DNA from: Gammaproteobacteria bacterium
GTDB lineage: Bacteria; Pseudomonadota; Gammaproteobacteria; Pseudomonadales; Porticoccaceae
Direction of reading: 5' to 3'
Length of the DNA: 35,048 nucleotides
Assembly: GCA_003645535.1 (NCBI GenBank)
Contig: QNFP01000013.1
Location: forward strand, 1-35,048
The notes below the pieces were generated by a model, which did no database searches, was not told the DNA's origin, and saw only the letters and a program-made list of their open reading frames with translations. The position numbers and the translations under genes were made by a program. Below are positions 9,353 to 25,522 of the stretch, piece by piece. Positions within the stretch are counted from its first letter, which is position 1. Each line of letters starts with the position of its first letter.

Positions 9353-9388
9353 TTATTCTGGATCACCAGTTTATTCGGGATCACCAAT
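9353..9388. repeat. 18-bp duplication across a stop codon
   Basis: Two 18-bp units (9353-9370 and 9371-9388) match at all but two or so positions. On the minus strand the gene ends GDPE-stop, and the second unit reads GDPE-stop again in the same frame directly after the stop. Confidence 0.85.
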
Positions 9389-11341
9389 GCTTGCTTGCAT
9401 AGTATCCGCGACAAGTGCAGCTACATTTGAACCGGTCAGGGACTCCATAAATCTTACCAAATTTATTTTTTCCTTTTTGCTAAGTTTGAGTGGGTGAATG
9501 CGCGGATCCTGATTGTCATTGGGAAAACCGCCTCGGTTATAGAATTCGACTACATCTTCCAGCGTGGTCAGGGAGCCATCGTGCATATAGGGTGCGGTAA
9601 GCGCAATATTGCGCAGGCTTGGGGTACGATATTTCCATCGATCCTGGGGAGACTGGGTGATTTCGTAAAGACCGAGATCATTTTGTCTGGGTCCAGAAAC
9701 TGAAGCAATAATGCTGTTGTTCACCTCGACAAACTGCCCAGGTGCGATCTGCACTCTGGTCGTAAGTGATGTGGTGGTAAGCGGAGAGGCCTGCATAGCC
9801 GTCTGGTATCCTAAACCCGTATTATGTAAGCCACTGTCGGTGAAGAGGGCATACTCTTCACTAACGAGATGGCAGCTGCTGCAGCCACCCTTACCCACAA
9901 ATAGTTCAAAGCCAGCGCGGGCCCCAGGATTAAGTGCATTATTTTGTTTGCCAAAGTACCACTGATCAAAGGATGAGTCAGCGGAAGTTAAAGTCCTTTG
10001 ATAGCTCGCCAACGCCATACCGACAGTTTCCATAGTTGCTGAACTTTGATATGCCGCTTCGAAAAGACCCTTATAGTCAGCAAGCAAATTTAGTTTCCGG
10101 ATAACAAAACCGACCGAGGGATTGGCCATTTCGTTAGGCGCCAGAAGTGGTCCCCAAACCTGTTGTTCCAGAGCGTACTCACGCCCGTCATGGAATAGCC
10201 GTTCTAAATAAGCGACATTGTAGAGAGTCGGAGCATTGCGGCGAACGCTACTGCCTTCGATACCTACAGCCGTGGCCATCTGATTGTTGGTAAAACCCTG
10301 TTCTGGCACATGACACATGGCACACGACATAGTGTTGTTGAGCGACAGTCGTCGATCGAAAAATAGTTTTTGTCCGAGATTGATAGCCGCCGCCGTTATT
10401 GGATTTTTATCAGGTACTGGCGGCGGGGGCAAACCTAAAAGCGACTTGCCAGACCAGCGTGATATGGAAGGGGAGGCATTACTGCTAGTTAAATCTGCTT
10501 TGTCCTGATCGGCGGCTTTTGTATTCGTTAGCGAAGCGGAGCTTGCTGCGTCTTCTATCTGTACCGTCTTGATATCACTGATCAGCGTATCTGCATGAAG
10601 ATAAGAGGTGCTATAAATATTACGTATTTTTTGATCCCGGTCGATTAAAAAAACTCGCAGAATATGGGAAAACCGCCCCGCGTCCTTGCCGTCTTTATCG
10701 AATACTTTTGAAACTGTCTGGGCATAATCATTAAGAATTGGTTGCAGGGTATCATCGCCACTGGTGGTCAGGAATTGCCAGTCAAGCGTGTCGCTTTGAA
10801 AACCTTTCCCATAGCGCTGCATAACCTCGGGTGTGTCATGTTGAGGGTCGAAGCTTATAGTGATCATGCGCAACGTAGTTGTAAGGTTGTGTTGTTCAGC
10901 AATCCTTCGCTTGATTTTGTGGAGTACCGCTGTCGCTAATGGACAACCATTGATGTCGTCGCAAGTAGCGTAGATGAAACTTAATAACACGATATGCCCA
11001 TCAAACAGATCGTGAAGTTTCAGCGATTCTCCATCTGTATTGATTACTTCGCCATCCGCTGCGTCGCCAAGAACTGGCAACGTATAGGTGTTAGGATCAG
11101 GTGCGGGGAACTCCAGGGATCGGTAACCGGGCGCCAGAATTTGAGCATCGGCATACGCAGTCTCGGAGCAGAGCAGCAGCACTGCTGTGCACAGCGCCAT
11201 TAAACCAGGGATTATTGAACCAAAAACTATTAAGCCAGATACGACTGAACCAGGTGCTACTGCAGCACGTACAGGCTCGCCAAAAATTACCGCGACGGTC
11301 TTGCTGTGGCGAACGCGTTCCAAACTCCAGCTTGCTATCAT
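9371..11341 (-). CDS. SCO1/SenC – di-haem cytochrome c peroxidase (MauG-like) fusion
   Basis: One 656-residue frame with two domains. Residues about 80-265 are SCO/SenC-like: VLLSFIYATCDDINGC has Cys127 and Cys133 (CX5C rather than the usual CX3C), and FSHILRVFLIDRD holds the SCO histidine (226). A Ser/Ala-rich linker and a PPPPVP stretch (266-310) lead to a cytochrome c peroxidase/MauG domain with haem motifs CAMCH (340-344) and CSSCH (487-491). The protein should be exported to the periplasm; the hydrophobic leader (about 28-64, ending AYADA) contains a pentapeptide repeat. The start is uncertain: ATG at 11341 or ATG at 11200. It lies 35-100 bp downstream of mtoX. SCO would deliver copper and MauG would carry out haem-dependent oxidation for MtoX maturation; that role is inferred from known mtoX loci. 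Confidence 0.85.
   Translation of the reverse strand: MIASWSLERVRHSKTVAVIFGEPVRAAVAPGSVVSGLIVFGSIIPGLMALCTAVLLLCSETAYADAQILAPGYRSLEFPAPDPNTYTLPVLGDAADGEVINTDGESLKLHDLFDGHIVLLSFIYATCDDINGCPLATAVLHKIKRRIAEQHNLTTTLRMITISFDPQHDTPEVMQRYGKGFQSDTLDWQFLTTSGDDTLQPILNDYAQTVSKVFDKDGKDAGRFSHILRVFLIDRDQKIRNIYSTSYLHADTLISDIKTVQIEDAASSASLTNTKAADQDKADLTSSNASPSISRWSGKSLLGLPPPPVPDKNPITAAAINLGQKLFFDRRLSLNNTMSCAMCHVPEQGFTNNQMATAVGIEGSSVRRNAPTLYNVAYLERLFHDGREYALEQQVWGPLLAPNEMANPSVGFVIRKLNLLADYKGLFEAAYQSSATMETVGMALASYQRTLTSADSSFDQWYFGKQNNALNPGARAGFELFVGKGGCSSCHLVSEEYALFTDSGLHNTGLGYQTAMQASPLTTTSLTTRVQIAPGQFVEVNNSIIASVSGPRQNDLGLYEITQSPQDRWKYRTPSLRNIALTAPYMHDGSLTTLEDVVEFYNRGGFPNDNQDPRIHPLKLSKKEKINLVRFMESLTGSNVAALVADTMQASIGDPE
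11199..11273. repeat. 15-bp degenerate tandem repeat coding for pentapeptides
   Basis: Units start at 11199, 11214, 11229, 11244 and (weak) 11259; the conserved core on the plus strand is ATTRANCCAG. If translated in the fusion gene they give VAPGS, VVSGL, IVFGS, IIPGL (residues 28-47) just before Met48. Confidence 0.75.
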
Positions 11342-11432
11342 TTATCGTGGCCTGAAATTCGCGACTTACTGTATGTTTTATGTCCAGCGTGTCGCTAGTA
11401 GGGCCGCCACTATCCCGCAGTTGGCCGGAGAA

Positions 11433-12797
11433 TTAATTTTTCACCAGCGATGCTGAATGGTCATCCGATGTTTGTGCTGTATAAAGTGAATAAGCTCCGA
11501 AACGCATCTGATGTGCTCGCCCAAGCTTTGCGGCAATGAAATCAATGGCGAACTGCTGTTTTAACTCTTTGCCATCCCAGCTGTAAAGCTTGAGGAACTG
11601 ATCGTTGTCCTCGCCTTTTTTATCCCAGTTTGCCAACAACGAAGTTGTATAGTAAAGCCGCTTGCCATCCCAGCTCGATGAAACCATGTTTACCTGCGCA
11701 CCGATTTGTTTTTCGTAGGTTTGTATCGGTTTGTGGGGATCAGAAATATCGAAGCCGCGGGTCTTGCCATCCATAAAGGTATTCACCCAAAGCATATTGT
11801 CATCGCTTTGTATGGATATATCTACCGGCAGGGGAATCTTTGCCGGGTCGCCAATGTCGGCAACTTCCTTCGCCTGCCACTCACCAGCCTTGTCTTCATA
11901 AATCAGCCAGATTTTTGAAGTAAGAGCGGTAGTCGTGAAGCAATAGTGGTTGTCGGCACCCAGGGCGCAACGGATTTCCAGGGGCGCGCCGGGCACGTCG
12001 AGAATTTTCTTCGGTTTACGGGTATGCAAATCCCAGATTACAACAGTATTACCAAAGCGCTTCATGGCTTCGGGGTCGCTGAGCATCTTGCCAAAATCCA
12101 TCATGTAATTGGACCAGCCGGTAAACGATGAGGTGACCATGACATTACGTTCAGGCAGGGCGCGTATGTCGTAGCCGTATCCTCCAGCGTAAACTCCTGA
12201 TTTGGTGGCGCCGCGCAGATCACTATCATTGGGCATCCAGTGAGTGGTGATGTATTCGCCATTATTTGTGTACTCAACCAGGGCCGTGCGTCCGCTGTGA
12301 TCCTTATTATTGGACAGACCCGTGATCATCATTCGGCCGGGCAGGGCATAGGTGGTATGCGGTCCTACTACACCTCCGCTTTTAGATACGAAATCGGTAA
12401 TCACTTTATGGAGCGTGGGTTTGCCCGGGTTGCTATGCACGTCGAAAATAAATATCTTGTTAGTGTCCAGACCACCGGCCCACAGGTAACGGCGGTCATC
12501 AGTAAATCCAGAGTGATGTGCTTCGTTTCGCCCCCCTACGGAAAGGCTGCCGACCACCTTGCCATAATTGTCCGAGGCAGGATTGACCGCGACGGTGACC
12601 AGTTTGTCCTGCTCGTCGCCAACACCAGGCATGCCCAGAGTCCAGACATAGACAAAATCTTCCTGGCCAATAATTTTTGCCATGTAGGGCGACATACAGG
12701 TTTCGTCGGCATGAGCGCCAGAGCTAAGTGTCGCGAAAACAGTCAGCAAACTTATTCCGAGGCCAGTAAAAAAAGAGCTTGTTTTTTTATTTTTCAT
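11433..12797 (-). CDS. mtoX: methanethiol oxidase (SBP56 / selenium-binding protein family)
   Basis: SBP56-family protein expected to oxidise methanethiol to formaldehyde, sulfide and hydrogen peroxide in the periplasm, using copper. ATG at 12797 is preferred to the in-frame TTG two codons upstream; it gives a signal peptide of about 31 residues ending SGAHA. Family hallmarks seen are YVWTLG, DKLVTVAV, VGGRNEAHHSGFTDDRRYLW, LDTNKIFIFDV, GGVVGPHTTYALPGRMMI and the C-terminal GRAHQMRFG. The mature length of about 420 residues suits bacterial MtoX. The histidine-rich signatures (NEAHHSG, GPHT, GRAHQM) are likely metal sites. The next gene on the strand is the SCO–MauG fusion, repeating the mtoX-SCO-mauG association known from methanethiol-oxidising bacteria. 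Confidence 0.9.
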   Translation of the reverse strand: MKNKKTSSFFTGLGISLLTVFATLSSGAHADETCMSPYMAKIIGQEDFVYVWTLGMPGVGDEQDKLVTVAVNPASDNYGKVVGSLSVGGRNEAHHSGFTDDRRYLWAGGLDTNKIFIFDVHSNPGKPTLHKVITDFVSKSGGVVGPHTTYALPGRMMITGLSNNKDHSGRTALVEYTNNGEYITTHWMPNDSDLRGATKSGVYAGGYGYDIRALPERNVMVTSSFTGWSNYMMDFGKMLSDPEAMKRFGNTVVIWDLHTRKPKKILDVPGAPLEIRCALGADNHYCFTTTALTSKIWLIYEDKAGEWQAKEVADIGDPAKIPLPVDISIQSDDNMLWVNTFMDGKTRGFDISDPHKPIQTYEKQIGAQVNMVSSSWDGKRLYYTTSLLANWDKKGEDNDQFLKLYSWDGKELKQQFAIDFIAAKLGRAHQMRFGAYSLYTAQTSDDHSASLVKN

Positions 12798-13210
12798 AAT
12801 CAACCCACTTTAAAATTCTGAGAGTTTAAATACTCGCTGTTTGCTGTGAATAAGAAGCACAATAGCGCCCACGCCAACAACGTCTTCGAAATCCGCAGCC
12901 AGACTGGAAGGGGGCTATTTGTTTGCTGTTATTACCTGCTCCTGTTACCGACTTTCTTTGTCATGTGGTTTACACTAACACGCTGATTGCCGCAAAGTAA
13001 TATTATTTATAGCACAGGATGATATTGGCGCCACCATACCAGTGGTATCTTGATTATGGATTATGGATTATTGGTAATAAGCCCAACTGTCGGGAGCCTG
13101 GATAAATTACGATCTGCCATGCATCCAGGCAACTTTGGGGAACAGGGCAATAGTTATTTGAATGGACAAAAATGTAATCCGCAAAAATTGACAACTGACG
13201 AGGAGATACC
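12798..13210. other. divergent control region between mtoX and the SDR gene
   Basis: 413 bp without a convincing gene. Visible elements: a 13-bp palindrome ATACCA-G-TGGTAT (13036-13048), three 7-bp copies of GATTATG/T (13052-13072) and an inverted repeat CCTGGAT / ATCCAGG (13097-13103 and 13123-13129). Promoters for both genes are expected here, but no hexamer pair was good enough to assign. Confidence 0.5.
13036..13048. promoter_or_regulatory. candidate operator palindrome
   Basis: ATACCA-G-TGGTAT is a perfect 6-bp inverted repeat around one base, about 160 bp before the SDR start and 240 bp before mtoX. The regulator is unknown. Confidence 0.35.
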
Positions 13211-14060: not shown

Positions 14061-15674
14061 TCAACTACCTGCCGCAGAAGGCGGTTGCGGTTTTTTAATT
14101 AAATAAGTTAGAGCTGCACCAATCCAGAATGCTGCACCAACAAAGTAAAAAGCATCGTTATAGGCCATCACATAACTTTCCCGTCGTGCAATGGCATCAA
14201 TGGCTCTCAGTGCCTGCTCCTGGGCGAGAATGGCATCAGCACCGAGGTTGATGAAATAGCCCTGTAAGCTCTGCAATCTGTCGACGGTTAAAGGGTTATA
14301 CAGGGAAATATTCTCGACAATATGGCTGGAGTGAAATTGTTGGCGTATAGATAGAAACGTTGCCAAAAAAGCTATACCGACAGCGCCGCCCAGATTACGG
14401 GTAAGGTTATACAGACCGGATGCTGAGCCGACCTGGGCTTGCTCAATGCCTACGGTGGCGATAACAGCGAGGGGTATGGAAAGCAGAGGTTGACCAATGC
14501 CCCGGATAAAATTGGCCAGCAACAGTTGTTCGTAGGCATATTCTGCGTTCATGTTGACATTGATCATGCAACTCCAGCCAAAGACGATGCAGCCGACACA
14601 TACCAAATGTCGCGGATCAACGGTTTTCATCAGTTTTACTAGTATGGGCACCATAATTAGCTGGGGAAAACCGAACCACATCATGGTGACTCCAGTTTGC
14701 CATGCGTTGTAATCCTGTATCTGCGCAAGATAGAGGGGCGTGATAAAAATCGTTCCATAAAGGCCCAGGCCCAGGATCACGCCAAGAATATTGGCGAGGC
14801 TGAAGTTCCAGCGCTTAAAAAGGCGGAGGTTGATAAAGGCATTGTTACCCCACAGCTGGCGGTATAGAAAAATCAGAAAACACCCACCAGCGAAGGCCGT
14901 CGCCCGAACGATAGCCTGTGATTCAAACCAGTCCAGACGGTTGCCTTCTTCAAGGATTATAATCATTGAGCCGAGGGCAATGGATAACGTAATAATGCCT
15001 GTCCAGTCGCCTGTTTTTAACAGACTGCGGTTGCCTTTGGTCTTTTCCAGGCCCCACGACAAAATTGCAAACATCAATATGGTAGGAATGATCTGCATAT
15101 AAAAAATCGACTGCCAGCCGATGGCTTCCGTCAGATAGCCACCAAGTGTCGGCCCGATACTGGGGGCCTGGGTAGCGGTGAGAGAGAACATGGCAATTCC
15201 CAGAGGCTGCTTGCTGGGCGGCAGTAAAGTCAAAATAACCGTAAAAGACAGCGCGATAAAAGAACCACCGGCAAAACCAGCAATGGTTCTAAACACCAGC
15301 ATGGATTCAAGATTCCAGGCCATAGCGCAGGCCATGGTGGCGGCCATAAACACGAGAGACGTGGTGAGTACAAAGCGCCGTAGCCCAAATACCTGGACCA
15401 GCCATCCTGTCAGCGGGATGACGATTACTTCGGCAGTTAGGTAGGCGGTGGATATAAAAGAGCCTTCATGTAGCGTTGCCGACAATGCGCCCTGGATTTC
15501 CTTCAGGGACGAGTTGGTGATCATGATGTTTAGAACGGCGATAAAGGCACCGATCACGCTGCCCCACACGGTGAACCAGGTGCGCATAGAGACGTAATCT
15601 TCGGGGAGAGTTTCCGCAGGTTCTACGGTTTCTCCTACTTCATTGTTGCCGTCTGCGGTGGTTGCATCATTCAT
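14061..15674 (-). CDS. DHA2-family multidrug MFS transporter (EmrB-like), copy 2
   Basis: A 537-residue inner-membrane proton-drug antiporter with the 14-span EmrB/QacA layout. DHA2 signatures include AVLNIMITNSSLKEIQGALSA at the first span, EVIVIPLTGWLVQVFGLRR, and the motif-C-like TATQAPSIGPTLGGYL. The N-terminal ~35 residues are an acidic cytoplasmic tail. It closely resembles copy 1 at 16126-17718: both end with the same QEQALRA(I/V)DAIARRES block, so they arose by duplication. It is last in an emrA–emrB–Rieske–emrB array and probably uses the same membrane-fusion protein. Confidence 0.92.
   Translation of the reverse strand: MNDATTADGNNEVGETVEPAETLPEDYVSMRTWFTVWGSVIGAFIAVLNIMITNSSLKEIQGALSATLHEGSFISTAYLTAEVIVIPLTGWLVQVFGLRRFVLTTSLVFMAATMACAMAWNLESMLVFRTIAGFAGGSFIALSFTVILTLLPPSKQPLGIAMFSLTATQAPSIGPTLGGYLTEAIGWQSIFYMQIIPTILMFAILSWGLEKTKGNRSLLKTGDWTGIITLSIALGSMIIILEEGNRLDWFESQAIVRATAFAGGCFLIFLYRQLWGNNAFINLRLFKRWNFSLANILGVILGLGLYGTIFITPLYLAQIQDYNAWQTGVTMMWFGFPQLIMVPILVKLMKTVDPRHLVCVGCIVFGWSCMINVNMNAEYAYEQLLLANFIRGIGQPLLSIPLAVIATVGIEQAQVGSASGLYNLTRNLGGAVGIAFLATFLSIRQQFHSSHIVENISLYNPLTVDRLQSLQGYFINLGADAILAQEQALRAIDAIARRESYVMAYNDAFYFVGAAFWIGAALTYLIKKPQPPSAAGS
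14072..14096 (+). terminator. intrinsic terminator of the SDR gene
   Basis: CCGCA / TGCGG stem (14072-14076, 14086-14090) followed by TTTTTTAATT. It lies inside the 3' coding end of the convergent emrB-like gene. Confidence 0.5.
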
Positions 15675-15707: not shown

Positions 15708-16058
15708 CTAGATTTCAATGTTTAGTTCGTTGTCGGCAACTGTAACGGTATAAGTTTGCAGGCACTTTTCCTTACGAATAACATTAAGCATCTGGATCCC
15801 CGGTGGGAAATTCGCCCATTTATTCACGCCTCCGGTGGCTATATCGAACTGGGCACGATGTATTGGGCACTGCAATGTTTTGCCTCCATCCATTAATTTG
15901 CCGTTTTTCAGTGGCAGCATCAGATGGGGGCAGCTCGCCTGCACGGCATGAAAGCCACTGTCGAGATGAAAAAGAAGAACTTTTGTGCCGTCTAAGTTAA
16001 GTAGTTTCCTTTCGCCTATGGCCAGCTCATCGGCTGAACCTGCGTGATGACTTGTCAT
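15708..16058 (-). CDS. Rieske [2Fe-2S] ferredoxin-like protein
   Basis: A 116-residue soluble Rieske protein of the dioxygenase-ferredoxin or NirD-like type. Cluster ligands are Cys43/His45 (CPHL) and Cys64/His67 (CPIH), with the usual spacing. No signal or membrane anchor is seen, so it is not a bc1-type Rieske. It would pass electrons to an oxygenase or reductase, but none is encoded nearby; it lies instead between two emrB genes on the same strand with gaps of 33 and 67 bp. AGGAT precedes the ATG. Confidence 0.9.
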   Translation of the reverse strand: MTSHHAGSADELAIGERKLLNLDGTKVLLFHLDSGFHAVQASCPHLMLPLKNGKLMDGGKTLQCPIHRAQFDIATGGVNKWANFPPGIQMLNVIRKEKCLQTYTVTVADNELNIEI

Positions 16059-16125: not shown

Positions 16126-17718
16126 CTAGTGCTCGGGCGTTGGCAGTTTTTTCATAAAAAAGATAAAACCGAGACTGACTATAAATGCAGCGCCCATAAG
16201 ATAGAAGCAATCATTGTAAGCCATAATGAAACTCTCTCGTCGTGCGATAGCATCGACAGCCCGCAAGGCCTGTTCCTGAGCAAGCACGGGATCGGCACCC
16301 AGGTTGCTAAAGTAGTTTTTGAAGCCCTGCAGGCGCTCTATCGTTATCGGGTTATAAGCAGATACTGATTCGAGGATATGGTTGGAGTGAAATTGTTGGC
16401 GTATCGACAGAAAGGTGGCCAGACCGGCGATGCCTACGGCACCACCCAGGTTACGCAGTACATTTAGTAAACCCGATGCGGAACCGACCTGTTCCTGTTC
16501 GATTTCAGCGGTGGCGATAACATTTTGCGGAACCATAATAAAGGGCATGCCCAGCCCCCGAATTACATTTGGCCATATGAGGTGATCACGGGCATAGTCG
16601 GCAGTCATGTAGATATTGAGCAAACAGCTGAGGCCGAAAATAAACGTACCGATGGCGAGCAGCACTCGCGGGTCGATCACTTTCATCAGGCGCAGAACAA
16701 TGGGTACTACTAGTAGCTGTGGCAGGCCCACCCACATCATCACCAGGCCAATTTGCATAGCGTTATAGCCGTGTACCTGAGCCAGATACATGGGCATGAT
16801 AAACACTGAACCGTACAAGCCGAGACCAAGCACGATCCCCACCAGATTGGAGAGCAGGAAGTTTCGTCGGGCCAACAGCCTCAGGTTGATAAAGGGTTGT
16901 TTACCTTTGAGTTCTATAGCGACGAATATTATCAGGCAGGCAATCGCCAATATGGTGCCGCGCAGAATAAAATCAGATTCCAGCCAGTCATTGCGCTCAC
17001 CCTCTTCGAGCATAATGATCATTGTGCCGAGGCCGACGGCCATAGCTGCCATCCCGTACCAGTCTCCATTTTTAAGTAGCGACAGGTTTGGTGCAGATTT
17101 CTTCAGGCCATGCCAGAGAATCAGGAACATTATCGATGTGGGGATAATCTGCAGATAAAAGATTGCCTGCCAACCAAAGGTCTCGGTCAAATAACCACCC
17201 AGGGTTGGGCCTATGGTGGGCGCCTGGGTGGCGGTCAGGGCAAACATGCCCATACCAATAGGCTGTTTGCTGGTCGGTAGCAAGGTAAGAATGAGGGTGA
17301 ATGACATGGGAATAAGCGTGCCGCCGGTCAGCCCCGCCAGCGTTCGGAATACCAGCATGGACTCCAGATTCCAGGCCATTGCGCAAAGCAGGGTGGCCCC
17401 GACAAAGAGTGCGATATTGACCAGCATGTATCGACGCAGACCGAACACCATGGCCAACCACCCGGTAAGAGGAATGACAATCACCTCTGCGGTCAGGTAG
17501 GCTGTGGAGATAAATGAACCTTCCTGGAGCGTGGCGGCCAGGGCTCCCTGAATGTCTTTCAGGGATGCATTGGTAATATGGATGTTAAGGACAGCAATAA
17601 ATGCACCGAGTACACCGCCAAAAACTGTCAGCCAGGTGCCGAAGGAGACATGGCTTTCATCCTCAACGAGTGTAGAGGGTATTTCTTCGACGTTATCGGT
17701 AGTGGAAGTGCCACTCAT
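16126..17718 (-). CDS. emrB: DHA2-family multidrug MFS transporter (EmrB-like), copy 1
   Basis: A 530-residue, 14-span transporter homologous to EmrB, which exports hydrophobic toxins and uncouplers through a tripartite pump with EmrA and an outer-membrane channel. It has AVLNIHITNASLKDIQGALAA at span 1, VFGLRRYM in the first loop, and ALTATQAPTIGPTLGGYL at motif C. It starts 31 bp after the emrA-like gene stops, a standard emrAB order, so it is the likely primary partner. No outer-membrane TolC-like gene is present in the window. The symbol is assigned by order and homology class. Confidence 0.92.
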   Translation of the reverse strand: MSGTSTTDNVEEIPSTLVEDESHVSFGTWLTVFGGVLGAFIAVLNIHITNASLKDIQGALAATLQEGSFISTAYLTAEVIVIPLTGWLAMVFGLRRYMLVNIALFVGATLLCAMAWNLESMLVFRTLAGLTGGTLIPMSFTLILTLLPTSKQPIGMGMFALTATQAPTIGPTLGGYLTETFGWQAIFYLQIIPTSIMFLILWHGLKKSAPNLSLLKNGDWYGMAAMAVGLGTMIIMLEEGERNDWLESDFILRGTILAIACLIIFVAIELKGKQPFINLRLLARRNFLLSNLVGIVLGLGLYGSVFIMPMYLAQVHGYNAMQIGLVMMWVGLPQLLVVPIVLRLMKVIDPRVLLAIGTFIFGLSCLLNIYMTADYARDHLIWPNVIRGLGMPFIMVPQNVIATAEIEQEQVGSASGLLNVLRNLGGAVGIAGLATFLSIRQQFHSNHILESVSAYNPITIERLQGFKNYFSNLGADPVLAQEQALRAVDAIARRESFIMAYNDCFYLMGAAFIVSLGFIFFMKKLPTPEH

Positions 17719-17749: not shown

Positions 17750-18802
17750 TTATTGATTTGTTGCCAGCTCGCTTTCATTGCCACCGCGGATATCAACTTT
17801 AGCGGTGACTGACATACCTGGACGTAGACGCTTGACCACAGGGTGGTCCAGGTCAAGCAAAATCTTCACTGGCACACGCTGTACTATTTTGGTGAAGTTG
17901 CCGGTGGCGTTATCTGCCGGTAATAAGCTGAATTGCGCACCACTGGCCGGCGATAGACTATCTACAACACCATCTATTATCTCACCCGGAAATGTATCTA
18001 TTTCAATTTTGGCTGTTTGGCCCGGTTGCATGTTGGTCAGCTGGGTTTCCTTGAAATTAGCGCTGACCCAAATCTCATCCAGTGATACCAACGCCATCTT
18101 GCGGGCACCGACATGGATGTATTCACCCGGTTCCACATGTTTGTTACCAACCACTCCGGAGCGGGGAGCCCTTATATCGGACAGATAAAGCGCGATCTCT
18201 GCTATACGTTGTCTGGCTTCGGCTTCCGCCTGCTCTGCGCTAAATTCTTCTGCTTCGGCGGTTAGTACTTCGCGCTGGGCACGAGAAGCGACATAGTTGG
18301 CCTGAGTGCGAGCCAGTTCGGCTTCGGCGGCAGCGACATCAGTAAGAGAGTGGTCATAAAGTTGTTTCTCGGCAAAACCCTTTTCCCTCAACTCCTGTGC
18401 GCGGACAAGATCCAGTTTGGCGCGCTGTAATTCTGCCTGGGCGGCTCTAACTTCAGCCTGACTTGCCTCAGTAGTCGATACCTGTAATGTTAGCCGGCTT
18501 TCGAGGTGCGCCAGACTCGCCTTGGCGCCAGCAACATCAGCTGCAGCTTTTGCGACACGTGCCGTAAAAGTGTGTTTATACATCGATATTAGAATGGCGC
18601 CTTCTTCAACTTTTTCATTGTTTTTCACATTGACCTGTTCGACGATGCCCGGCACCTTGGCGCTAATTACTGTGATATCAGCCTGCGTATAGGCGTTATC
18701 AGTCGATTCCCAATAACGACCTTCAACCCACCAGTTTTTTAGCCACCAGCCACCGCTTGCCAAAGCCAGGACTAACAGGGAGAGCAGAATAATTTTACGC
18801 AT
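17750..18802 (-). CDS. emrA: HlyD/EmrA-family membrane fusion protein
   Basis: The 350-residue periplasmic adaptor of an EmrAB-type pump. One N-terminal membrane helix (about 4-20) is followed by STDNAYTQADITVISAKVPG (the EmrA hallmark TDNAY), a lipoyl half-motif, an Ala/Glu-rich coiled-coil hairpin (about 80-200), the second lipoyl half (IRAPRSGVVGNKHVEPGEYI) and beta-barrel repeats (WVSANFKETQL). It is the first gene of the emr operon and divergent from a TetR regulator 316 bp away. Substrate specificity is unknown. Confidence 0.93.
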   Translation of the reverse strand: MRKIILLSLLVLALASGGWWLKNWWVEGRYWESTDNAYTQADITVISAKVPGIVEQVNVKNNEKVEEGAILISMYKHTFTARVAKAAADVAGAKASLAHLESRLTLQVSTTEASQAEVRAAQAELQRAKLDLVRAQELREKGFAEKQLYDHSLTDVAAAEAELARTQANYVASRAQREVLTAEAEEFSAEQAEAEARQRIAEIALYLSDIRAPRSGVVGNKHVEPGEYIHVGARKMALVSLDEIWVSANFKETQLTNMQPGQTAKIEIDTFPGEIIDGVVDSLSPASGAQFSLLPADNATGNFTKIVQRVPVKILLDLDHPVVKRLRPGMSVTAKVDIRGGNESELATNQ

Positions 18803-18965: not shown

Positions 18966-19060
18966 GGTACTGTGCCGTACCCTAGCACCGAGACATTGAC
19001 CTTGCAAGGGTTTGAGATTTATTTAAGTTACTTTCCCGGATTGAAAAATGTGTGTAACTT
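18966..19060. promoter_or_regulatory. emrA/tetR control region with two inverted repeats
   Basis: The 316-bp divergent gap holds GGTAC-TGTGCC-GTACC (18966-18981) and AAGTTAC / GTAACTT (19025-19031 and 19054-19060). A plausible plus-strand promoter TTGACC (18996-19001), 18 bp, TATTTA (19020-19025) lies between and touches the second repeat. These are candidate TetR operators for autoregulation and pump control. Confidence 0.4.
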
Positions 19061-19118: not shown

Positions 19119-19736
19119 GTGATGAAAGAACAAAACGATGATCTCGAACTGGAGCGGCGCAATATCATTCTCAAGGCGGGGATGGAGGTATTGTTTGAGT
19201 ACGGTTATCTTGGCGCCAGTGTTGATGAAGTGGTGCGTCGCGCTGGAGGATCCAAGCGGACGGTCTACAAATATTTCGATAACAAAGAGGGCCTGTTTGC
19301 GGCAATCGTAGCTAATCTTGTCGAGCAGATGATGGCACCCCTGCAGCCTGAGATTACTGATGAAAAGGGCCTGTACGATACTCTGGAAAACCTGGGTCAG
19401 AATTATCTGAGTGTCTTATTGCAGAAAGAAAGTATCGCAATTTTTCGTATCGTGGTATCGGAAGGCGCCCGGTTTCCCGAACTGGGTAACGCGCTTTTTG
19501 AGTCTGGGCCGGGGGTCGCAGTCGAAAGACTGTCAAAGTATCTGCGCCGCCAGACCGACCTGGGAGTACTCAAGGTAAATGATGCGGAGGCAGCGGCTCG
19601 ACAGTACTACGGCATGATTCGTTCCGATTTGCATATGCGGGCACTATTGGGGCTTGAGCTCCCTGATAAAGAGGAAATTGATGAGGGTATTAGCCGTGCC
19701 GTCGATATTTTTATTAAAGAATATGATGTTGATTAG
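19119..19736 (+). CDS. TetR/AcrR-family transcriptional regulator
   Basis: A 205-residue repressor with a N-terminal TetR helix-turn-helix: residues about 20-62 read ...EVLFEYGYLGASVDEV, then VVRRAGGSKRTVYKYFDNKEG. The C-terminal ligand domain is AcrR-like. The start may be GTG at 19119 (AAGGA 8 bp before) or the adjacent ATG at 19122. A divergent emr operon strongly suggests that it represses the pump and is released by a substrate, a role common for this arrangement. Confidence 0.9.
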   Translation: MMKEQNDDLELERRNIILKAGMEVLFEYGYLGASVDEVVRRAGGSKRTVYKYFDNKEGLFAAIVANLVEQMMAPLQPEITDEKGLYDTLENLGQNYLSVLLQKESIAIFRIVVSEGARFPELGNALFESGPGVAVERLSKYLRRQTDLGVLKVNDAEAAARQYYGMIRSDLHMRALLGLELPDKEEIDEGISRAVDIFIKEYDVD

Positions 19737-20029: not shown

Positions 20030-21646
20030 ATGAGTGTTAAACACCACCGCGACAATGCAAGGCTTGGCTTGTTCAGTTTGCGTCTTCTTTTTCTCCCCCT
20101 TTTGTTTCTGACTTGCTCAACTAGTTTATTTGCCGCATCAGCCACTTTTGGCAGCTTCGAGCGCAAATTAGCTACTTTTGATCCTGGCGGTCGGTACCTG
20201 ACCAAACCTATTGAGCGGCAGGTGCCTGGTCTCAGTATCAATGGTTCTTATTATCTATGGTCTGATAGCCTGGTCTCAGGACAGGACGACATTGGTTTTC
20301 GGGATCGGGATTTTCGTGCTTTGCAGGTACAGAATATTTTTGAAGTTGAGTTGAACTATCGTTTTTCGCCAAATATGGAAATTGCCAGTATTAACCATTT
20401 TTTGTACGATGCTGTGTATGACCTGGAAAGTGCTGATGGTCTGTATGCGTACCGTGTCGACAAAGCATTTCGTAATTACGATGATTCTGAACGGATAGCA
20501 CGGGAATTGTATTTTTCTTACCGCACCTCGAAACTGGATGTCGTGGTGGGCAAGCAACAAATCGCCTGGGGGAAAATGGATGGTCAATTTATCGATGTTA
20601 TAAATTCTATGGATCTGAGGGAATCGGTGCAGTTAGAGGCCAGTGATTACGAGATGCGCCGCCTGCCGATGTGGATGGCAAATGTGACTTACTATTTTGA
20701 AGATGTTTCTCTTAACTTATTATTGATTCCGGATTTTGAAGAAAACTTTAATCCACGCTACGGCGCACCCTGGTCTTCGCCATTACTGCCACCCGATGAT
20801 GCCAATGCAGCGTCGAATCAGGCGCTACTAGATGGCAAGACCAACGCTGCGGGTGATCGTATTTCTCATGCGAATAACCCTGACTGGTACAGATTTAGTG
20901 ACCAACAGTTTGCAGCTCGTATAGATGTCGCCAACGGGCCGCTTACCTGGGGGCTGATTTATTATTACGCATGGGAGCGTGATGCCGTTCAGTCTGTCAC
21001 CGGCAGATTTACCGATGCGACCGGCGACCATTTACTTATTGATCCTGAGTACGAACGGCTTCATCATTTTGGCTTTACCTCCGATTACGCCTGGGTGATA
21101 CCCAGTGTTCCCTGGGTGGGCGCGCTGCCCATCGTGTTCCGAGCAGAAGCTCTGTATACCAGGAATGCTCACTTTACGGACTATAGCAAGCTCGCGGCAG
21201 CATATTCCGGCGCGTTGAATAACGGTGTTAGTGAGCATGATACTGTCCGCGCTGCACTGGCTTTTGAGTTTGCCCTGCCAGCCAATGTTACCGCTATATT
21301 TCAGCCTTCCTTTTATTATACGGACAACTGGCATGACGGGCTGGGCGTAGGTTTTGGCGGAGCGATTGGCGACCGCTGGAATTTCATTCCCGTTGTCTTT
21401 GTCGAAAAGCCAATTAGAGCCACACGGGATAGACTAAAGCTAAATGTGACTTTGAGCCCTTATTTTAGTGGTCCTGACCGGGGTTACCAGGGTGGTAAAG
21501 CCAGGTTTGTGGCCAGCTATGAAGTTAGTCAATATATCAAAGGCAGTATTATCTACACTGATTACAGTGGGGGAGACAATGATGATCTCTTTGGTCAGTA
21601 TGACAAGTGGGATAATATTGGTATCGAGCTACAATATGAATTCTAG
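20030..21646 (+). CDS. DUF1302 outer-membrane protein
   Basis: A 538-residue protein with a signal peptide (about 1-36, ending SLFA-AS) and a beta-rich body. It has the family's VPGLSINGSYYLWSD start, VVGKQQIAWGKMDGQFIDVIN region and a C-terminal ...IELQYEF ending in Phe, as expected for a beta-barrel assembled by BAM. DUF1302 proteins occur with DUF1329 and often with MMPL/RND exporters, and are thought to act in envelope traffic of hydrophobic compounds. Only 3 bp separate it from the DUF1329 gene, so the two are one operon. The start ATG has a weak ribosome site. Confidence 0.85.
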   Translation: MSVKHHRDNARLGLFSLRLLFLPLLFLTCSTSLFAASATFGSFERKLATFDPGGRYLTKPIERQVPGLSINGSYYLWSDSLVSGQDDIGFRDRDFRALQVQNIFEVELNYRFSPNMEIASINHFLYDAVYDLESADGLYAYRVDKAFRNYDDSERIARELYFSYRTSKLDVVVGKQQIAWGKMDGQFIDVINSMDLRESVQLEASDYEMRRLPMWMANVTYYFEDVSLNLLLIPDFEENFNPRYGAPWSSPLLPPDDANAASNQALLDGKTNAAGDRISHANNPDWYRFSDQQFAARIDVANGPLTWGLIYYYAWERDAVQSVTGRFTDATGDHLLIDPEYERLHHFGFTSDYAWVIPSVPWVGALPIVFRAEALYTRNAHFTDYSKLAAAYSGALNNGVSEHDTVRAALAFEFALPANVTAIFQPSFYYTDNWHDGLGVGFGGAIGDRWNFIPVVFVEKPIRATRDRLKLNVTLSPYFSGPDRGYQGGKARFVASYEVSQYIKGSIIYTDYSGGDNDDLFGQYDKWDNIGIELQYEF

Positions 21647-21649
21647 ACT

Positions 21650-23089
21650 ATGATTATTAATGACACCGCAAACGTCTGGTCGCTGAGCTACCGTCGGTTG
21701 TGCATTTTAACGAGCCCGGCCCTCAAACCGTTGTTATCTTATTTAACAGCGGTTTTTTTTATGCTCGCACACCCACAGTCCGAGGTGTTTGCCAGCGACA
21801 TATCTACGCCTGATCAGCAAGCTGTGCAAAAAGGCGTAGTGAATAAGAGGGTTACTCATAAGGGAATGTGGCGAACACCTGGAAACTTAACAGCAAGCGA
21901 ACAACGCCGCGTTGATATTAATTCGAGTTCATCTGACCGCGGCACCGTGTCCTACCTGCCTACAGAAGAGTGGCCCTTCGAAGCGCCATTTTCGGCCCAG
22001 GAGATTGGCTATCGCGTAATGGATTTTAGCCATGTACCACGATGGTCCCATGTCATGGCCGATGCCTTTGGTGTATTGACCAAAGCTGGCTATTTGACTC
22101 AGGGTGTGACAGTAGGAATGGTAGAGCAAATATCCGCACCGGGGGCACTGACACAGATCGAGTCCCAACCCGGTGATATTTATTCGCGACAAATTTATTT
22201 TGATGTTTATCCACCTAAAAATAAAGGGCTGCAGCAAATGTGGCTAATGCGGCGCTCCGGCGCAGATAACCCTACTAAGTTGGATTTTTTCATCTATAGC
22301 CCATCACTCCGTCGCGTGCGGCGGCAACCACCACCCCGGCGTGAAACACAGTTTCCGGACATGGTGCAATCCTTTGACGATATAACGGGGCGAGAGGCCT
22401 GGGAGTTCGACTGGCGATTACTGGGTGCTGACACTCTTTATAAAACGGTGCGCTTCCCAATAAACCGTGAAACCATTACGCTCGGTCGCGCGAACGGTAG
22501 CTATTATGATGTACCTACTGCAGAGATCAAAATGATGGGTGAACGGTATCCGTTTTATCGGACCGATGGGGGTGTTGATTGTTTTGTCGTTGAGGCAAAA
22601 CCCAATCGCGACTGGTTGCCCAATTATGAAATTTCAAAATTAATTTACTGGGTCGATCAGTTCTATTTTTATCCGCTTCGTATCGAACAATATAATGAAA
22701 ACGGTGAACTGAAGACGGTGCAGGTACGATTGGCGCGGCACGATAATACCAAACTGGCAGAAGGCTATGGCTATTCCAACAACCTTTCTGTTTACTACGA
22801 TCTTCAGCAGGATTTATTGAGTTATAGTCTGCATGACGCAATTATGGTACGTGAGTGGAGTGAGGAGGAGCTCACTATGTTTACGCCAGACTTTATGCGT
22901 CGGCGTTGGTTAAAGTATCCACAGCAAAGTCAGGCTTTAGTCGATAGCCCTGAGCAATTTTATCTACGCCCGCAACTTCTCAAAGATCGCTTTCCAGAGG
23001 AACGTCCAATAAAAATTACTGAGGATGTGGTGGCGAGAATTAAGGAGCAAAATAAAAACGGATACTTAAAGTTTTCTGAAAGCGATTGA
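21650..23089 (+). CDS. DUF1329 family exported protein
   Basis: A 479-residue periplasmic protein of the DUF1329 family, structurally akin to LolA/outer-membrane lipoprotein-sorting proteins. The N-terminus has a long polar n-region, then a hydrophobic core and a probable cleavage after VFA (about residue 48). Family features include EEWPFEAPFSAQEI, YSPSLRRVRRQPPPR and the KLIYWVDQFYFYPLRIEQYNENG block. It is coupled tightly to the DUF1302 gene. Together they may carry a hydrophobic substrate across the periplasm; here no MMPL transporter is adjacent, and an emr pump is the closest exporter. Confidence 0.85.
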   Translation: MIINDTANVWSLSYRRLCILTSPALKPLLSYLTAVFFMLAHPQSEVFASDISTPDQQAVQKGVVNKRVTHKGMWRTPGNLTASEQRRVDINSSSSDRGTVSYLPTEEWPFEAPFSAQEIGYRVMDFSHVPRWSHVMADAFGVLTKAGYLTQGVTVGMVEQISAPGALTQIESQPGDIYSRQIYFDVYPPKNKGLQQMWLMRRSGADNPTKLDFFIYSPSLRRVRRQPPPRRETQFPDMVQSFDDITGREAWEFDWRLLGADTLYKTVRFPINRETITLGRANGSYYDVPTAEIKMMGERYPFYRTDGGVDCFVVEAKPNRDWLPNYEISKLIYWVDQFYFYPLRIEQYNENGELKTVQVRLARHDNTKLAEGYGYSNNLSVYYDLQQDLLSYSLHDAIMVREWSEEELTMFTPDFMRRRWLKYPQQSQALVDSPEQFYLRPQLLKDRFPEERPIKITEDVVARIKEQNKNGYLKFSESD

Positions 23090-23143
23090 ATTTTGATGAA
23101 CGTTTTATTCAAAAGAAGATAATAAAAAAATGAGGATTGGATA

Positions 23144-24310
23144 ATGACTTACTTACCCTTAACGAAAGAGCAGCAGGATTTAAAAGATCTGGCGGCACAG
23201 CTAGCAGTAGCGGAAGTGGCCCCGCGCGCCAGTGAAACAGACAAGACTGGTATGTTTCCGCGTGCCTCGCTGGACGGATTAAAAGCGAGCGGATTGTGGG
23301 GCTTGCGCGTATCGAAAGAACACGGAGGTATGGGCGCTGATTTGCTATCGACCTGCCTGGTTGTGGAAGAACTCGCAAAAAAATGTCCCTCCACAGCGAT
23401 GTGTTACAAAATGCATGTGGAAGCGGCTGAGTTAATTAGCAAAATGCCTAGTGATTATCAGGTCGAGAACTTTGTTAAAAAAATAGCTGCCGGAGAAATA
23501 TTGTGCACCGTAGCTGGTGGAGAAACTTCCGGTAAGGGAGATGACTGGATACCGGGTATGGTGTTGTCCTCCGTGGAAAAGGGCAGTGATGGGTACATCC
23601 TTGATAATGTCCGCAAATCCTATGTGACATCGGCAGGGGAGGCGTCGCACTATTTTATGCTATGCAGGGTCGGAGATGAAGCAAAAGGTCACCAGTTGAC
23701 CGCCCTGTTTATTGAAGCTGACAAGGTAGATTGGGAAACACTGGGCGAGTGGAATGGTCTGGGTATGCGCGGCAATAATAGTATGCCCATTTGCTTCAAT
23801 GGAGTAGTGCCGGAGCAAAATCGTCTGGGTGAAGAGGGTGCTGCATTGAAATATCTGGGAGCAATAATGATGCCGGTGGTTGCCTTAACCTATGGGGCGG
23901 CTTATCTTGGCGTGGCGTCAGGCGCTTACGAATTAGCGATGGAAGAAGCATCGAAAGTACACCCAAGCGGAGCCAAACGCCTGGATAGCCCGATTAATCA
24001 ACGGCGCATGGCTGAGTTGAGTGCCAAAATTGAAGCAGCACGAGCATTGCTACACGTTGCCGCAACAGCAGGTGATGCTGGCCAGGTAGGCGCACCACTG
24101 CCTTATTTGCAGGCTAAAGTATGTTGTTCAGAGGTGGCGGTACTGGTTACCCAGGAATTGATGACTATGTTTGGCGGCACTGCCTTTGCAGCTCGATTAC
24201 CCTTTGAGCGTTATTTCCGTGATGCGCGGGCGGGTATGATTATGGGTCTGGCCAATGATGATGCTTATCAAACCATCTACAGTATGTTGTTCCCCGCAAA
24301 GAAGAAATAG
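23144..24310 (+). CDS. acyl-CoA dehydrogenase family flavoprotein, catalytic Glu not seen
   Basis: A 388-residue ACAD-fold flavoprotein: N-terminal helical domain (1-120), beta domain with VAGGETSGKGDDW, and C-terminal helices with FGGTAFAARLPFERYFRDARAG. Typical ACADs carry the base Glu in a YEGT-like motif right after RDA; here that region reads MIMGLAND, with Gly near 368 where Glu should be. The alternative Glu position of the IVD/LCAD type (helix near ALTYGAAYLG) is also not Glu. It could therefore be a monooxygenase-like or inactive ACAD homologue. It follows DUF1329 by 54 bp with GAGGA before the ATG. Confidence 0.85.
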   Translation: MTYLPLTKEQQDLKDLAAQLAVAEVAPRASETDKTGMFPRASLDGLKASGLWGLRVSKEHGGMGADLLSTCLVVEELAKKCPSTAMCYKMHVEAAELISKMPSDYQVENFVKKIAAGEILCTVAGGETSGKGDDWIPGMVLSSVEKGSDGYILDNVRKSYVTSAGEASHYFMLCRVGDEAKGHQLTALFIEADKVDWETLGEWNGLGMRGNNSMPICFNGVVPEQNRLGEEGAALKYLGAIMMPVVALTYGAAYLGVASGAYELAMEEASKVHPSGAKRLDSPINQRRMAELSAKIEAARALLHVAATAGDAGQVGAPLPYLQAKVCCSEVAVLVTQELMTMFGGTAFAARLPFERYFRDARAGMIMGLANDDAYQTIYSMLFPAKKK

Positions 24311-24360: not shown

Positions 24361-24655
24361 ATGAAAGTTCATATTGATTTGTGTTTGATTCCCAGGGCGG
24401 GGATGTGTCGGTGTCCCGGGATATCGCCGAATGCCAGAAAATATTTGCGAAACGAGGTTTGACGCACTATTTACATGCCTATGGAACCAATGTCGAAGGC
24501 GATTGGGACGAGGTGATGAATGCAGTTAAAGAATGCCATGGGCGTGTTCCTTAGGTCGTACCAGAATCTCATCAACACTCAAGATTGGTACGCGAACTGA
24601 TCGGGAACAAAGTCTGGATGAAAAGGTCGACAGTGTGGCGGATAAGCTGCGCTGA
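24361..24655 (+). pseudogene. thiamine-binding family (MTH1187/YkoF-like, PF01910) pseudogene
   Basis: Three fragments in different frames rebuild one ~97-residue protein: MKVHIDLCLIP (from ATG 24361), then GDVSVSRDIAECQ...HAYGTNVEGDWDEV...KECHG (from about 24399, other frame), then RISSTLKIGTRTDREQSLDEK to TGA at 24653-24655. HAYGTN-EG and ISSTLKIGTRTDR are hallmarks of the thiamine-binding family. Frameshifts lie near 24394 and 24548. No insertion sequence is involved. An assembly error is possible but two separate shifts make true decay likely. Confidence 0.8.
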
Positions 24656-24691
24656 TAACACCATCGGAAACGAGTACAAGGGGAGGTCAAT

Positions 24692-25522
24692 ATGGCCCAT
24701 AGTATTAGATTTGTAGTTTTTTTTATCAGTTTGTTTGTTGCAATTATTTGTGCGGCGGAGGGCACAACAAGTTCCGGCGCTATACAGGACATACTCCAGA
24801 GTCCGGATCGTACGCCGGCCTTCGCCAGTCGTGATATCTATCGTCATCCTTCGCAAACCCTGGTTTTTTTCGATGTGCAAGCCGACATGACGGTGGTCGA
24901 GATCTGGCCTGGTACAGGCTGGTATACGGAAATACTGGCTCCGTATTTGAGTTCCGGTCAACTCTACGCCGCACACTTTCCAGCGGACTCCGGGGTAAAG
25001 TATTTTGCTGACTCGCGGATGTTTTTTGAGGAAAAGCTCAAAGCGTACCCAGATGTGTACGCATCTGTCGTACTGGGCGAATTCAGCCCGAAGATGAATG
25101 TTTTGACCGTGCCCGACGGTAGTGCTGATAGAGTGTTAACCTTTCGTAATGTACATAACTGGTTGCGTAGTAAGAATGAAGCGGAAGCTTTTTCACTTTT
25201 CTACAGGGTATTAAAACCGGGTGGAATTTTGGGTGTCGTCGAACACCGAGCCAAACCGGGAACTGACTGGGAGACGATGAAAAAGAGTGGCTATATGACA
25301 GAGGCTTATGTGATTGAGCTTGCCGAACAGGCCGGTTTTGTTCTTGAGGCGCGCAGTGAGATTAACGCTAATCCAAAGGATAGCACTTCCCATCCCAAAG
25401 GCGTGTGGGCCTTACCACCGACCTTGCGCTTGAAGGACAAGGAGCGGGATAAGTACCTGGCGATCGGTGAGAGTGATCGTATGACCTTGCGGTTTAGCAA
25501 GCCGCTGTCTGCAAACAAGTGA
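24692..25522 (+). CDS. exported class I methyltransferase-like protein (COG4798)
   Basis: A 276-residue Rossmann-fold methyltransferase-like protein. The N-terminus is a clear signal peptide (about 1-22), so the product should be periplasmic, where S-adenosylmethionine is not expected. Motif I is VVEIWPGTGWYTE (68-80), and GSADRVLTFRNVHNW and FYRVLKPGGILGVVEHRAKPG complete the fold. Its true ligand is unknown. A strong GGGGAGGT site precedes the ATG. Its stop codon overlaps the GTG start of yheU (GTGA), so the two genes are translationally coupled. Confidence 0.85.
   Translation: MAHSIRFVVFFISLFVAIICAAEGTTSSGAIQDILQSPDRTPAFASRDIYRHPSQTLVFFDVQADMTVVEIWPGTGWYTEILAPYLSSGQLYAAHFPADSGVKYFADSRMFFEEKLKAYPDVYASVVLGEFSPKMNVLTVPDGSADRVLTFRNVHNWLRSKNEAEAFSLFYRVLKPGGILGVVEHRAKPGTDWETMKKSGYMTEAYVIELAEQAGFVLEARSEINANPKDSTSHPKGVWALPPTLRLKDKERDKYLAIGESDRMTLRFSKPLSANK

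Follow-up and report, generated by a model that had tools for sequence, protein, structure and literature searches.

Studies of bacteria that grow on or tolerate hydrophobic compounds repeatedly encounter DUF1302 and DUF1329 proteins, whose mechanism is unsettled. In Castellaniella defragrans, AmeABCD comprises a DUF1302 protein, a DUF1329 protein, a COG4447 protein and an HAE3 RND transporter, and deletion of the set is reported to lower monoterpene tolerance (PMC6394551). Four-gene sets of the same composition (DUF1302/DUF1329/COG4447/HAE3) are reported to be assigned to aromatic-catabolism regulons (PMC6449761), while the P. putida pair PP_0765/PP_0766, which is involved in Tween 20 use, reportedly shares fitness phenotypes with the unlinked genes PP_2018/PP_2019 (PMC10866462). 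In Delftia Cs1-4, DUF1302 and DUF1329 proteins are described from nanopods and, in cells grown on phenanthrene, a DUF1302 protein from the outer membrane (PMC3110197). In the literature that we searched, which excluded bioRxiv preprints altogether and subscription papers for the most part, neither DUF1302 nor DUF1329 occurred together with an "emr-" word.

The window, as we call the whole stretch of 35,048 nucleotides analyzed here, is one contig of a Porticoccaceae genome (G000; 4.15 Mb, 578 contigs, 92% completeness) and contains a DUF1302–DUF1329 pair beside genes for an EmrAB-type pump:

14061–15674, minus strand: emrB2, second EmrB-type (DHA2 MFS) transporter (TIGR00711, 351.6 bits, cut-off 230.2)
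15708–16058, minus strand: Rieske [2Fe-2S] ferredoxin gene, 116 aa (open reading frame; the G397 ortholog matches Pfam Rieske at 4e-15)
16126–17718, minus strand: EmrB-type (DHA2 MFS) transporter (TIGR00711, 382.4 bits, cut-off 230.2)
17750–18802, minus strand: EmrA-like periplasmic adaptor (TIGR00998, 234.8 bits, below the curated cut-off of 390.8)
18966–18981, no strand: operator-like palindrome in the emrA/tetR gap (0–3 mismatches at the same place in 14 of 14 genomes)
19119–19736, plus strand: TetR-family regulator with an AefR-like C-terminal domain (PF14246, 114.4 bits; PF00440, 55.1 bits)
20030–21646, plus strand: DUF1302 outer-membrane beta-barrel protein with a C-terminal Phe (PF06980, 43 bits, cut-off 23.2; predicted barrel model)
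21650–23089, plus strand: DUF1329/LolA-like protein, probably periplasmic (PF07044, 40 bits, cut-off 23.1; PF17131, 46.1 bits)
23144–24310, plus strand: flavoprotein resembling acyl-CoA dehydrogenases but lacking their usual catalytic glutamate (PF02771 and PF00441)

The run emrA-emrB-[Rieske ferredoxin]-emrB2 is divergent from tetR, which lies between emrA and the DUF1302 gene. Intergenic gaps are 316 bp (emrA/tetR), 293 bp (tetR/DUF1302), 3 bp (DUF1302/DUF1329) and 54 bp (DUF1329/flavoprotein). Both profile matches and coordinates agree with the original prediction that the exporter nearest to the pair is of the EmrAB type, with a TetR gene between them; the Rieske ferredoxin gene was absent from the gene list given there.

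Like AmeABCD, which is tied to hydrophobic-compound tolerance (PMC6394551), the window encodes an outer-membrane protein of the DUF1302 family together with a DUF1329 protein of the LolA superfamily. However, HAE3/MMPL and COG4447 genes are absent from the window, the pair lies beside tetR-emrAB, and the DUF1329 match is only 40 bits, with LolA_like scoring higher. PP_0765/PP_0766 resemble the window in being a DUF1302–DUF1329 pair whose transporter partners lie elsewhere, but the published partners are PP_2018/PP_2019, not Emr, and the accessible part of the source describes no TetR–Emr neighbourhood (PMC10866462). Similarly, DUF1302 and DUF1329 proteins are common to Delftia Cs1-4 and the window, whereas no Emr link is described for Delftia in the text available (PMC3110197).

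With EmrAB–TolC type pumps, the window shares an EmrA-like adaptor encoded beside a DHA2 EmrB that exceeds the TIGR00711 cut-off, as does the second copy. It differs in its divergent TetR, in the presence of a second EmrB copy, separated from the first by a Rieske ferredoxin gene, and in its EmrA, which has TIGR00998 as its best family at a score below the cut-off. Orthologs of emrB2 (77–93% identical) are present in G396, G397, G398 and G466. The ferredoxin, of which G399 has a copy that is 87% identical, has intact Rieske motifs (C-X-H as C43-P-H; C-X2-H as C64-P-I-H). The block contains no gene for a TolC-type outer-membrane channel; E. coli emrAB likewise has none alongside.

The pair represents a distant branch of both families. 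This genome has six DUF1302 and 11 DUF1329 matches, and the bit scores of the window proteins, although above the Pfam cut-offs, compare with values of up to 353.8 (DUF1302) and 386.5 (DUF1329) for the other copies. Structure prediction for the DUF1302 protein yields a barrel rich in strands (mean pLDDT 66.2), whose best solved matches in a fold search are porins; the 50 matches listed are porins and other barrels, with TM scores of 0.33–0.44 by query length and 7–12% identity. Because of these low values and the model's pLDDT, we restrict our claim to "barrel". A C-terminal Phe, which is a mark of outer-membrane barrels, is present in all nine aligned DUF1302 proteins. For the DUF1329 protein, a profile search identified the LolA-like structure 3bk5 (E 1e-4); its assignment as LolA-like is based on profiles, the quality of the predicted model (mean pLDDT 50.4) being insufficient for a fold search.

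Conservation of the arrangement among relatives

The gene-neighbourhood survey called for by the original prediction was run in 112 genomes of the family. Nine of them contain the window DUF1329 family: all six of the same genus and three of genus g150. In a class-wide draw, 3 of 369 genomes were positive at E 1e-25 or better, this one included; in an order-wide draw (single-sequence query, 1e-10) only this genome was (1/390). The family was not found on the plasmids searched. Among named records, close relatives of the gene come from three Porticoccaceae MAGs, in line with the assignment of this genome to that family. There are two DUF1329 types, one paired with DUF1302 and one solitary, about 45% identical to each other.

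In five of the six genomes of the genus (G000, G396, G397, G398 and G399, the last represented by a DUF1302 fragment at a contig end), DUF1302 adjoins tetR-emrAB, and the predicted placement of the pair beside EmrAB rather than MMPL is thus borne out in one clade. As the same gene order recurs in relatives, the arrangement is more than chance: it is real, and it is conserved in one lineage. Conversely, the pair is located away from emr in four of the nine carriers (G395 and all three of g150).

EmrA orthologs (E 1e-60 or better) are present in 14 of the 112 genomes, namely the nine DUF1329 carriers, two further g150 genomes and three of genus g147. Their emrA is divergent from tetR in every case (14/14), and five of the 14 have tetR-emrAB without the pair. 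Since EmrA and tetR are distributed more widely than the linked pair, we consider tetR-emrAB to be older and the pair to have been added later. In the DUF1329 tree, the four linked copies (G000, G396, G397, G398) form one clade (support 100/99); the EmrA tree (five linked copies together, 78/85) and the DUF1302 tree (linked copies together, 61/55) agree with it weakly. The link of the pair to emr is therefore young and loose, and co-occurrence of the two is confounded by kinship.

It is possible, though unlikely, that the two are chance neighbours, the pair having landed beside tetR-emrAB once and never having been separated since. A single origin accounts for all cases, and G395 has what appears to be the unoccupied site: its tetR is directly followed by the methyltransferase gene that comes after the flavoprotein gene in the window, then by the 26623 gene and epmC, an order that corresponds to the right part of the window minus the pair. 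However, the block is intact in G396, G397 and G398 although their flanks differ from those of the window on both sides; when eleven other window genes were used as probes, none was found beside the block in these three genomes except for a 27% SDR match.

Outside the linked clade, the neighbours of the pair vary. In G395, its neighbours are three genes resembling flavin monooxygenases and an RND pump of the AcrB type. In two genomes of another family (L079, L080), the pair is followed by weakly YtkA-like, DUF5667 and CoA-transferase III genes in both. Solitary DUF1329-like genes (L062, L063, L065) lie beside genes for an amidohydrolase and an outer-membrane efflux protein; where the contig extends far enough, genes for an adaptor and AcrB are present too. 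In genus g147 (L077, L078), tetR-emrAB is near an amidohydrolase gene whose product is 74–76% identical to that beside the solitary DUF1329 genes. An amidohydrolase was considered as a common partner and rejected: those near the g150 pairs have no detectable relation to those of the solitary DUF1329 and g147 emr loci, and with two unrelated sets no single partner emerges.

MMPL transporters and other exporters

A tblastn search with the seven MMPL proteins of this genome found no MMPL gene in the window; MMPL genes are present elsewhere in the genome. With the same seven proteins, we looked for an MMPL gene hidden near the pair at the 17 loci of the subfamily (the window and 16 related loci) and found none. 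Nor did any of the 17 loci have a match to the YCF48-like (COG4447) protein encoded on contig C143, a protein named by eye rather than by profile. On C143, the gene run is MMPL, YCF48-like, DUF1329, DUF1302, and this is the only one of the six DUF1302 genes of the genome with an MMPL gene in the same run; a second copy, on C4, is about 11 kb from one. The premise that the pair usually goes with MMPL is therefore not the rule in this genome.

In a rival explanation, the partner of the pair would be an MMPL/HAE3 pump whose gene lies elsewhere, as has been proposed for P. putida, and its adjacency to emrAB would reflect only shared regulation or capture of a TetR promoter. We consider this explanation rather unlikely, but keep it alive because the C143-type MMPL is present in all nine genomes with the window DUF1329 family (in two pieces in G467), and because the fitness phenotypes of PP_0765/PP_0766 are reported to be common to the unlinked PP_2018/PP_2019 (PMC10866462). 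In addition, contig C169 (L097; 6.9 kb) has two tandem HAE3/MMPL genes and a YCF48-like gene but no DUF1302 gene, making the tandem genes a candidate for the in-trans partner. The C143 MMPL, on the other hand, already has its own DUF1329 and DUF1302 proteins, the former only 24% identical to the window's over 209 aa, and the absence of MMPL genes from all 17 loci also speaks against the proposal.

To relate the subfamily to other pumps, we divided it into seven lineage groups (linked paired, G395, g150 paired, genus solitary, g150 solitary, G573 and G794; contig-end fragments L032 and L066 were left out). In four of the seven, a pump of the EmrAB or AcrB (HAE1-RND) type is encoded no more than about 8 kb away, while 5.5–10.7% of the genome lies within 5–10 kb of such a pump in three genomes. 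At a background of 8–10%, the chance of four in seven is about 0.001–0.003, a value for a grouping made after the loci had been seen. For this reason, and since one of the four groups has no DUF1302, we regard pump proximity as a lead only.

These observations bear on whether the pair and EmrAB could form one trans-envelope machine, in which EmrB would energise transport, EmrA and DUF1329 would pass on the cargo and DUF1302 would be the outer exit, an MFS motor standing in for the MMPL of Ame-type systems. TolC-type channels have a helical barrel as the docking site for the adaptor, and the DUF1302 protein is predicted to be porin-like, without such a barrel. The pair without linked emr in four genomes, emr without the pair in five, and the greater age of the tetR-emrAB unit also argue against a single machine, which we consider quite improbable even though the linkage is stable in one clade, no MMPL is near any of the 17 loci, and pump proximity in four of the seven post hoc groups exceeds expectation. 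Highly improbable, in our view, is the elaboration that the DUF1329–DUF1302 relay is a modular outer half open to various inner-membrane motors, that EmrAB replaced its MMPL/HAE3 motor in this clade, and that the Rieske ferredoxin links transport with an oxygenase for which the cargo is the substrate. A lineage with the pair stably tied to another pump class, next to a single TetR switch, offers a natural test of whether the pair is autonomous as an outer-membrane module or depends on belonging to an MMPL machine.

Putative regulation and a proposed explanation

Every emrA-tetR gap (14/14) contains a palindrome matching GGTACTGTGCCGTACC with 0–3 mismatches. The pattern GGTAC-N6-GTACC occurs once in this genome (18966–18981), compared with five occurrences of a reversed control pattern. 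An operator shared with the pair was sought upstream of DUF1302 and rejected, the best match having six or more mismatches in 9/9 regions, linked loci included; no copy of the palindrome is present on the contigs with the unlinked pair (G395 and the three g150 genomes). Between tetR and DUF1302, a terminator scan lists no site, but its overall yield does not exceed that from shuffled sequences. A short element in this gap, TTGTAGTAT, is common to G000, G397, G398 and G399 and might be a separate promoter for the pair. Given the palindrome in all emrA-tetR gaps, its absence upstream of DUF1302, the lack of a terminator-like site and the TTGTAGTAT element, we regard TetR control of emrA and tetR as likely, and that of DUF1302-DUF1329 as no more than possible. 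With just one operator-like site in the genome, the extent of the regulon is open to a direct test.

We tentatively favour, with somewhat less than even confidence, a TetR-governed divergent cluster for tolerance or transport of a hydrophobic compound that uses separate routes rather than one EmrAB–DUF1329–DUF1302 machine. Here, TetR would bind the conserved palindrome at 18966–18981 and be released when the compound binds to it; emrA-emrB-ferredoxin-emrB2 would then be expressed in one direction, and tetR, probably together with DUF1302-DUF1329, in the other, with co-transcription of the pair by read-through from tetR, as we infer. The DUF1302 outer-membrane barrel and the LolA-like periplasmic carrier DUF1329 would carry the compound across outer membrane and periplasm, a direction of transport that we likewise infer, while EmrAB, with a TolC-type channel encoded elsewhere, would keep excess out of the cytoplasm and inner membrane. 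Pair and EmrAB would thus handle the same compound along separate routes and not in a single complex; the pair might still use an MMPL pump encoded elsewhere, and the flavoprotein would be a passenger enzyme, joined in some strains.

Gene identities, conserved linkage and the conserved palindrome are observations; the divergent cluster as proposed is supported by the linkage in five of six genomes as one clade, by the intact block amid differing flanks and by the palindrome in 14 of 14 gaps. The absence of a listed terminator-like site between tetR and DUF1302 and the porin matches of the barrel model add to this, as do the reported monoterpene tolerance (PMC6394551) and aromatic-catabolism regulons (PMC6449761) of Ame-type sets. 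Counting against it are the pair's location away from emr in G395 and the three g150 genomes, without the palindrome there or upstream of DUF1302, the 293-bp tetR-DUF1302 gap with its possible separate promoter, and the confounding by kinship.

The flavoprotein and other genes in the window

The flavoprotein has both acyl-CoA dehydrogenase end domains. The catalytic Glu of the C-terminal Tyr-Glu-Gly motif is absent, with Gly368 in its place in all ten aligned orthologs (10 of 11; G444 was left out), while a paralog in this genome has IYEG at the motif. No Glu was found near the alternative catalytic site, at what we take to be its location in this protein. Because of the Gly in all ten orthologs, an ordinary acyl-CoA dehydrogenase reaction seems unlikely.

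Orthologs are present in 11 of the 112 family genomes and adjoin the pair in two (G000 and G398), so that the flavoprotein was rejected as a core part. In G396 and G397, it lies beside SDR, enoyl-CoA hydratase, NudC-like, metallo-hydrolase and luciferase-like genes; in G398, this block, without the SDR gene, follows the flavoprotein, and in g150 the block with SDR neighbours tetR-emrAB, the SDR match missing in G468. Of the overall reading given by the original prediction, the neighbourhood with Emr instead of MMPL thus stands, while the single envelope path ending in the flavoprotein is not supported.

Elsewhere in the window, the genes at 9371–12803 (minus strand) include a 656-aa open reading frame that fuses SCO1/SenC and MauG-type di-haem peroxidase domains, beside an SBP56 gene; this resembles the methanethiol oxidase operon with two of its genes fused. 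At about 24361–24656 (plus strand) is a remnant of a small MTH1187-type thiamine-binding-like gene, apparently frameshifted when inspected by eye. The gene at 24692–25522 (plus strand) encodes a methyltransferase-domain protein whose start, also judged by eye, is signal-peptide-like, which is unusual for a methyltransferase.
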